31,951 nt of DNA from the IMG/VR virus record IMGVR_UViG_3300028104_000058, positions 1-31,951 of that record, one strand, 5' to 3'. How positions within the stretch are numbered: position 1 is the first letter of the stretch; each line of letters starts with the position of its first letter. Positions 28,100 to 29,518 of this stretch are shown here, piece by piece. The stretch comes from a virus. The position numbers and the translations under genes were made by a program. The notes below the pieces were generated by a model. That model did not search any database and had not been told where the DNA came from. It was given only the letters and a program-made list of their open reading frames with translations.

Positions 28100-28416
28100 G
28101 ACCGCACCGCCCCTCGCCCCGGCACCCGGTGCGCACGTACGTAAATGGCGTGGGTTGAGCAGGCGTAGCTGGCGCCCTTGTCACCGGCGAGATTGGCGGT
28201 ATCGAAGCATTCGGCAGACGTCCCGCCGCAGGGACCGGCGGCGTCCATCGCGGCCTCGGCCTCCTGCTCCTCCCGCTCGTTCGCCTCGTCGGCGCAGCGG
28301 CAGTCGCCGGCACGCTGGGGATCGGAGTGGTTGTTGTTGCAGCCGGGCAGGCGCATGCGCCGCGACGGCGTGGGCGGCTGGCCGACGCCGTCGGTGGGGG
28401 TGGCGACCGGGTACAT
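28096..28416 (-). CDS. Hypothetical Cys-containing acidic protein, 106 aa
   Basis: Pro/Thr-rich N-terminus, GCNNNHSDPQRAGDCRCAD, an acidic coiled stretch (EANEREEQEAEAAMDAAG), and CGGTSAECFDTANLAGDKG with a basic tail. Overlaps the repeat-protein stop as GTGATG; ATG at 28416 is taken, GTG at 28419 is possible. No family recognised. Confidence 0.6.
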   Translation of the reverse strand: MYPVATPTDGVGQPPTPSRRMRLPGCNNNHSDPQRAGDCRCADEANEREEQEAEAAMDAAGPCGGTSAECFDTANLAGDKGASYACSTHAIYVRAHRVPGRGAVRS

Positions 28417-29336
28417 CACGCCGCCTCTTCCTTCGCCGGGACCCGCTCGCCGTCGATGTCGCACTCCCACACCGGGCCGGCGCAGCCGGGGGATTTGATC
28501 TTGTCGGGGTACATGGCATCCCGGTGGACGACGATGTCGGACAGGCGCACGGGGCAGGCGATGAACTTCGTCTTGAAGCCGTCGTCGAAGAACCGCAGAG
28601 CTGCGGCGGGGCGGGGCGAGAAGTGCAGACCGCCACCGCACTCGTTCCGGCCACCGTCCCAATCAGGAGCGATGGGCGTCGTGCCGGGCGTGTAGTCGAA
28701 GCCGTGCGGACTGCGGAAGTTGGCGTCGACCGCCTTGTACAGCGTGGCGATCCCGTCGGTGACCTCGACGCCGTAGAAGTCGCACCACTCCGCTGCCGTG
28801 GTGATCGTGGGCAGGGTGATGACCACACCGCCGGTGACCTTGGTGCGGACACCATGGACGGTGACGGCCACGAAGTGGCCGGCCGTGACCTGCGCCGAGC
28901 CGGAGGCCCTGACCTGCGCCGAGTCGGAGGCCGTGACCTGCGCCGAGTCGTAGGCCGTGACCTGCGCCGAGCCGGAGGCCCTGACCTGCGCCGAGTCGGA
29001 GGCCGTGACCTGCGCCGAGCCGTAGGCCCTGACCTGCGCCGAGTCGGAGGCCGTGACCTGCGCCGAGTCGTAGGCCGTGACCTGCGCCGAGCCGGAGGCC
29101 CTGACCTGCGCCGAGTCGGAGGCCGTGACCTGCGCCGAGTCGTAGGCCGTGACCTGCGCCGAGCCGTAGGCCGTGACCTGCGCCGAGTCGGAGGCCCTGA
29201 CCTGCGCCGAGCCGTAGGCCGTGACCTGCGCCGAGCCGGAGGCCGTGAAGTAGCCATCGCCTCGGAGGTGGGCGCAGTCGCCCTTCTTGGTGGCCGCTTC
29301 GAGCTCGGCCTGGGTGCGAACGTCGACGCAATTCAT
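28416..29336 (-). CDS. Repeat protein with beta-helix-like octapeptides and conserved C-terminal domain, 306 aa
   Basis: After a short N-terminal part (MNCVDVRTQAELEAATKKGD), 15 octapeptides of the form A-[S/Y]-[G/D]-S-A-Q-V-[T/R] run without interruption (about residues 31-150), a spacing and pattern suited to a right-handed beta-helix. A domain of about 155 residues follows, with GVVITLPTITTAAEW, DWDGGRNECGGGLHFSPRP, FFDDGFKTKFIACPVRLSD and PDKIKSPGC, recurring in actinophage proteins of unknown function. The repeats could present a surface or bind a ligand. ATG at 29336 is an ATGA overlap. A frame reaching 29600 is a spurious extension. Comparable phage proteins differ in repeat number. 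Confidence 0.8.
   Translation of the reverse strand: MNCVDVRTQAELEAATKKGDCAHLRGDGYFTASGSAQVTAYGSAQVRASDSAQVTAYGSAQVTAYDSAQVTASDSAQVRASGSAQVTAYDSAQVTASDSAQVRAYGSAQVTASDSAQVRASGSAQVTAYDSAQVTASDSAQVRASGSAQVTAGHFVAVTVHGVRTKVTGGVVITLPTITTAAEWCDFYGVEVTDGIATLYKAVDANFRSPHGFDYTPGTTPIAPDWDGGRNECGGGLHFSPRPAAALRFFDDGFKTKFIACPVRLSDIVVHRDAMYPDKIKSPGCAGPVWECDIDGERVPAKEEAA
28885..29244 (-). repeat. Tandem array of 15 x 24-bp repeats
   Basis: Fifteen contiguous 24-bp units (plus strand form [G/C]TGACCTGCGCCGAG then [C/T]CG[G/T]AGGCC). Twenty-one positions are invariant in all units. Three positions vary, each with two states, and each change alters one residue: Thr/Arg, Gly/Asp, Ser/Tyr. No synonymous difference is seen. 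Confidence 0.95.
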
Positions 29337-29518
29337 GCCGCCGTCGCCTCTTCCATCTCGGTCCAGCGGGCCTTGTCGGCCTCGGCGTCGGCCAGGTCGG
29401 CGAAGTGACCGACCACGGTGATCGGGCCGTCGTAGCCGATGTGCTGGATGACCAGGTATTCGTCGCGCATCGAGTCGTGGGCGACGACGTACATGACATA
29501 GGCGTCGTTGCGGTTCAT
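29333..29518 (-). CDS. Hypothetical small protein, 61 aa
   Basis: Beta-rich start (AYVMYVVAHDSMRDEYLVIQ), GYDGPITVVGHFADLADAEA, and a basic/acidic C-terminus. The pattern resembles a small beta-alpha sandwich. ATG in an ATGA overlap. No family recognised. Confidence 0.65.
   Translation of the reverse strand: MNRNDAYVMYVVAHDSMRDEYLVIQHIGYDGPITVVGHFADLADAEADKARWTEMEEATAA

Follow-up and report, generated by a model that had tools for sequence, protein, structure and literature searches.

A 31,951-nucleotide stretch of viral DNA (IMG/VR record IMGVR_UViG_3300028104_000058, positions 1 to 31,951; hereafter the window) contains a gene in which a 24-bp unit is repeated fifteen times with variation at only three positions. 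The question raised by this locus is whether such a pattern reflects selection and, if so, on what kind of protein. The array occupies positions 28881-29248 (period 24, 15.3 copies, no indels, by Tandem Repeats Finder) within an ORF on the minus strand, 28416-29336, with its ATG at 29336 and a predicted product of 306 aa (P0001). The original prediction had set the unit boundaries at 28885-29244, which is out of codon register for this gene. In register the unit, also read on the minus strand, is A-[SY]-[GD]-S-A-Q-V-[TR]; the three variable columns are C/A (9:6), A/G (8:7) and C/G (10:5), corresponding to Ser/Tyr, Asp/Gly and Thr/Arg, and the remaining 21 of 24 columns are invariant across the 15 units. 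The repeat finder and the codon table thus bear out the initial description of fifteen units varying at three positions, all of them amino-acid changing. Some doubt attaches to the number of units, 15, since the array exceeds the length of a short read and comes from an IMG/VR-type virus record; comparable arrays in isolate phages have 20 (Squirty), 13 (Frankie) and 9 (Che8) core units.

The units of the window array spell six words at the variable codons (SGT, YGR, SDT, YGT, YDT and SDR). Units 6-9 form a four-unit block that recurs as units 11-14, and a repeated block of at least four units was found in 117 of 5000 shuffled orders (~2%). The doubled block is as expected from unequal exchange, and the word set partly reflects this duplication. 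Between 29 and 32% of the possible changes in the window unit are silent, and three variable sites would all be nonsynonymous with a probability of 0.32-0.36. At P of about 0.34 the window array alone is no proof of selection. This one array cannot carry the original argument that silent changes ought to remain after drift, and the lack of silent changes was accordingly dropped as significant in its own right.

The gene product consists of an N-terminal part, the octapeptide solenoid and a C-terminal DUF7666-like domain, in that order. Its AlphaFold model (42 sequences, mean pLDDT 85) agrees with the beta-helix first predicted: a beta-solenoid in which each octapeptide contributes one four-residue strand, roughly positions 6-7-8-1. 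In this model V7 and A1 would face inwards and positions 6 and 8 outwards, with 2-3 at the turn; the surface placement originally ascribed to the variable residues is kept here as an expectation from strand alternation. Residues about 1-30 (..VRTQAELEAATKKGDCAHLRGDGYF; 29247-29336, minus strand) are modelled as strand 3-6, helix 9-17 and strand 21-24, a motif that recurs in relatives and is a possible cap for the solenoid. The protein matches phrog_15773 over most of its length (E 3.5e-72, residues 49-273, PHROG profile), a membership that by itself explains nothing of function. Homologues were found by tblastn in 32 phage records, mainly mycobacteriophages, where they include full-length ones. 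A small ORF without a Pfam match (29333-29518, minus strand) overlaps the start codon of the array gene by four bases and is possibly its operon partner.

Since a single array is uninformative by itself, the balance of silent and amino-acid change has to be read from the family. Viral contigs were searched with a degenerate three-unit pattern, giving 108 stretches that were extended by amino-acid criteria; distinct codon states at each unit position were then counted by means of a minimum spanning tree. The test set comprised 58 viral arrays with 811 units, made non-redundant at the level of the consensus and having an internal identity above 0.86. Codons 2 and 8 were unrestricted in the search, whereas the pattern held codon 3 to GRY; pattern and filter together also constrained codons 1, 4, 5 and 7 in part, and the omega of 0.26 at these four is not independent evidence. 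Over codons 2, 3 and 8 of the 58 arrays, 16 silent changes stand against 244 nonsynonymous ones (S 16.2, N 243.8), where 61-73 silent changes were expected under transition weights of 1-4. The resulting omega, which refers to distinct codon states per array and not to a tree-based codon model, is 4.6-5.9 (P at most 3e-13), with values of about 6.6, 3.6 and 6.1 for codons 2, 3 and 8 respectively. The silent share falls below expectation in 55 of 58 arrays (sign test 2e-13), and 43 of 58 have no silent change at all at these codons. A stricter set of 21 arrays whose consensus units are at most 18/24 identical yields an omega of 5.2 (P 5e-7). Eleven arrays from bacterial genome contigs, some of which are unrelated alanine-rich repeats, show the same direction more weakly (omega 2.7, P 0.036). 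Other coding-length repeats in bacterial contigs, a hand-cleaned list with frames assigned by longest ORF, have a silent share of 0.44 vs 0.06 in the octapeptide arrays. An excess of amino-acid change at the variable codons is thus well supported by these counts.

The manner in which the variants occur adds to this picture. Within the 58 arrays nonsynonymous variants have a higher median frequency than silent ones (0.30 vs 0.14, P 0.0025). Most of the arrays have two states per codon, and codon 3 uses the alphabet {D,G} in 49 of 58. The Ala1 codon differs freely between arrays (GCC 26, GCG 19, GCT 10, GCA 3), and this freedom suggests that silent variants are removed by homogenisation within each array and not by codon constraint. 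An overlapping reading frame constraining the silent sites was also considered, and was dropped because most relatives checked have stops in the alternative frames.

Repeat number and unit order both change among related phages while the flanks stay identical or nearly so. Frankie and SkinnyPete are assigned to different genera and have zero base differences in the N-terminal 35 codons and the C-terminal domain, yet their arrays have 14 and 12 units in differing order. Identical flanks with differing units are also found in Redi, Raymond7, BabeRuth and Rebel. Two prophage contigs from a single isolate record have arrays that differ by exactly one 24-bp unit, with C-terminal domains several substitutions apart. 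Among arrays with at least 8 units, codon linkage is strongest between codons 2 and 3 (z 17.9), followed by the previous codon 8 with codon 2 (7.1) and codon 3 (6.1), codons 3 and 8 (5.3), and codons 2 and 8 (1.2). Linkage between variable codons that drops with distance, together with unit states that are almost unordered along the array, points to recombination or slippage shuffling the units, although the linkage of codons 2-3 could alternatively be structural. The likening of units to 3-bit words is fair in spirit and loose in detail: most arrays use 4-8 words, codons 2-3 are strongly linked and the order is near random. Rapid shuffling of units is well supported by these comparisons. They show that gain, loss and reordering of units outpace the evolution of the remaining gene, and that the non-variable part of the unit is kept homogeneous within each array. 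Variation in repeat number and order between close relatives, the hallmark of a hypervariable tandem-repeat protein, was tested on relatives and seen there. On the contig IMGVR_UViG_3300031111_000008 two array genes (L068 and L070) have their first four units in common and then diverge, as if they were paralogues separated through array shuffling.

What the variable solenoid is attached to bears on its possible role. The C-terminal region (28419-28874, minus strand) scores 26.4 bits (E 9.8e-6) against Pfam DUF7666 (PF24703), whose cut-off is 27 bits; relatives score above it (46.1 bits for L086, 49.1 for Che8), and K, Y, C and G-L-H are invariant in an alignment of 44 relatives. Modelled alone, the region reaches a pLDDT of 91, and 26 fold matches in BFVD have E < 0.001 (best down to 4e-6), many of them named RIIB. 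In hhalign the DUF7666 profile matches T4 RIIB with E 2.3e-7 and the RIIB of Caulobacter phage Seuss with E 4.3e-9, compared with 0.36-0.74 for three unrelated controls, all of these E-values being those of single comparisons. These matches make the DUF7666-like region a distant homologue of the C-terminal domain of RIIB. The homology is limited to the non-repeat domain. No octapeptide array is present in the RIIB of T4 or of Seuss. T4 RIIB, a counter-defence protein directed against RexAB, has an N-terminal part of helix-turn-helix-like type, and in the window protein the array takes the N-terminal half. The window gene therefore has neither the N-terminal part of RIIB nor a neighbouring rIIA gene, as no rIIA-length ORF adjoins it in the window, and for these reasons we do not file its product as RIIB.

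Foldseek searches of the PDB with the whole model and with the DUF7666 domain gave no significant match, and a PDB sequence search, PADLOC and NCBIfam returned nothing, or low-complexity matches only. Among the top weak PDB fold matches of the DUF7666 model (28419-28874) are CNFy domains, TreX, DarT1 and PARP16, which we take to be of the ADP-ribosyltransferase-like class; these matches could be a clue to how the C-terminal domain of RIIB is folded. Array and DUF7666 are separable. A census of array ORFs, based on motifs and not on a profile search, placed a DUF7666-like motif after the array in 55 and before it in 7; a further 15 complete ORFs had it in neither place, and 30 ORFs were truncated. 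The 15 complete ORFs without a recognisable DUF7666 indicate that the array is not bound to this domain. Six arrays (L059, L068, L070, L095, L117 and L126) are joined to another N-terminal domain (MC..S..L..DRVFW..SHE..), and in arrays of the Bacteroidetes type the N-terminal part is small and of a further kind. In Pseudomonas phage PspYZU05 a DUF7666 protein of 536 aa (L188:445-2055) lacks the octapeptide array, and the RIIB of this phage is also among the BFVD matches of the C-terminal region.

Among the closest known counterparts is VR2 of bbp36 in Bordetella phage BPP-1, which like the window gene has 24-bp octapeptide units and in which DUF7666 (E 1.7e-10 for bbp36) takes the place of the DUF7666-like domain in the same protein. 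VR2 is also alike in that its two unit types are set apart by amino-acid changes only; it differs in that DUF7666 precedes the array, the unit is GTATAG[YR or ES] and the array is nearly of one unit type. VR2 is reported to have 9-20 copies depending on the isolate, and bbp36 to be non-essential (PMC2884959). A tetrapeptide repeat in Tweety gp54 and Che8 gp57 has invariant third codon positions and variable first and second positions, a pattern that its authors considered compatible with selection for variation (PMC2884959). It differs from the window array in its 12-bp unit (A-A-x-[S/Y] in Tweety), its motif and its lack of a Pfam match. In Che8 the octapeptide homologue, gp59, is encoded two genes downstream of the gp57 repeat, and 12-bp AAxS-like repeats at L009:1683-2546 (Che8 gp57), L007:6116-6206 and L035:6526-6680 each have S 0 and N 3.

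The other genes recognised in the window encode a terminase, a DnaB-like helicase, a further helicase and methyltransferases. The mycobacteriophage homologues sit in early-gene regions, and in several genomes the homologue follows repressor/cro-type genes and precedes WhiB and RecE/RecT genes. Divergent RIIA/RIIB suppress RexAB and are dispensable where RexAB is absent, and how specific RIIB is to RexAB and other systems is said to be still unclear (PMC11879866). That the array protein may act in counter-defence or exclusion is suggested by its domain homology and its gene position, together with the non-essential status reported for bbp36. The reading that we regard as best, and on balance probable, is that of an early, dispensable protein of the counter-defence type whose beta-solenoid carries a variable surface shuffled by recombination. 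Recombination or replication slippage between the 24-bp units would constantly homogenise the array and thereby purge neutral, silent variants, while selection would preserve two alternatives at the turn codon 3 and likewise at codons 2 and 8, which strand alternation places on the outside. Each phage lineage would then present its own combination of residues. Less certainly, the DUF7666 domain and the early-gene position would point to a dispensable early protein that deals with factors of the host or of prophages, and the solenoid might bind or evade a variable partner. Expansion or gene conversion combined with selection on beta-helix residues, as originally proposed, is thus supported by the family data and could not have been demonstrated from the window alone.

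Among other explanations, the one that survives best, although we consider it unlikely, is that selection is structural only: mixed states would avoid aggregation or electrostatic strain in a stacked beta-solenoid, serving folding and not the binding of a partner. The similar binary alphabets of unrelated phages, above all the {D,G} of codon 3, fit this explanation, as does the linkage of neighbouring codons 2-3. It predicts unlike neighbours, however, and at codons 2, 3 and 8 same-state neighbours at lag 1 are as frequent as in shuffled arrays or slightly more so; the differing mixes of phages with identical flanks are also left unexplained. A place in the virion, as a receptor-binding protein or otherwise, with a solenoid that changes host range through its variation, is distinctly improbable. 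Beta-helices are common in tail proteins and there are weak matches to Gp5_trimer_C and baseplate families, but these matches are confined to the repeats, and the homologues belong to early regions, where repressor, WhiB and RecE/RecT genes are close by. Neutral repeat dynamics, that is, a recent unselected expansion from a few founder units with silent changes missing by chance, would account for duplicated blocks and for a pattern that the window alone would give one time in three; the family-wide omega of 4.6-5.9 (5.2 in the stricter set) and the silent share of 0.44 in other repeats make this very improbable. Targeted hypermutation of fixed bases in each unit, of the diversity-generating retroelement type, would restrict variation to fixed codons as seen, but is scarcely credible for a window with no match to a reverse transcriptase (RVT_1), changes (C/A, A/G and C/G) that are not adenine-specific, and a family in which most arrays have two states per codon.

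Returning to the shuffled beta-solenoid of a counter-defence-type protein, a wider and tentative extension is that many kinds of phages might share a retroelement-free diversifier, in which a shuffled octapeptide solenoid with about two states at three codons, together with an RIIB-related domain, diversifies counter-defence proteins; we hold this possible rather than probable. Hypervariable phage repeats had been recognised earlier in two cases (PMC2884959). Our literature search, outside which most subscription papers lay, found no papers naming DUF7666 or combining terms for the family-wide pattern, and within that scope neither the family-wide test nor the link to RIIB was found in earlier work. 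Codon-level selection can rarely be seen within one sequence; each of these arrays supplies a set of variants by itself, and any phage genome with such an array allows the test to be run again. The link proposed here would connect the RIIB family with an early phage protein that is hypervariable, and it offers a testable proposal for many unnamed phage genes.
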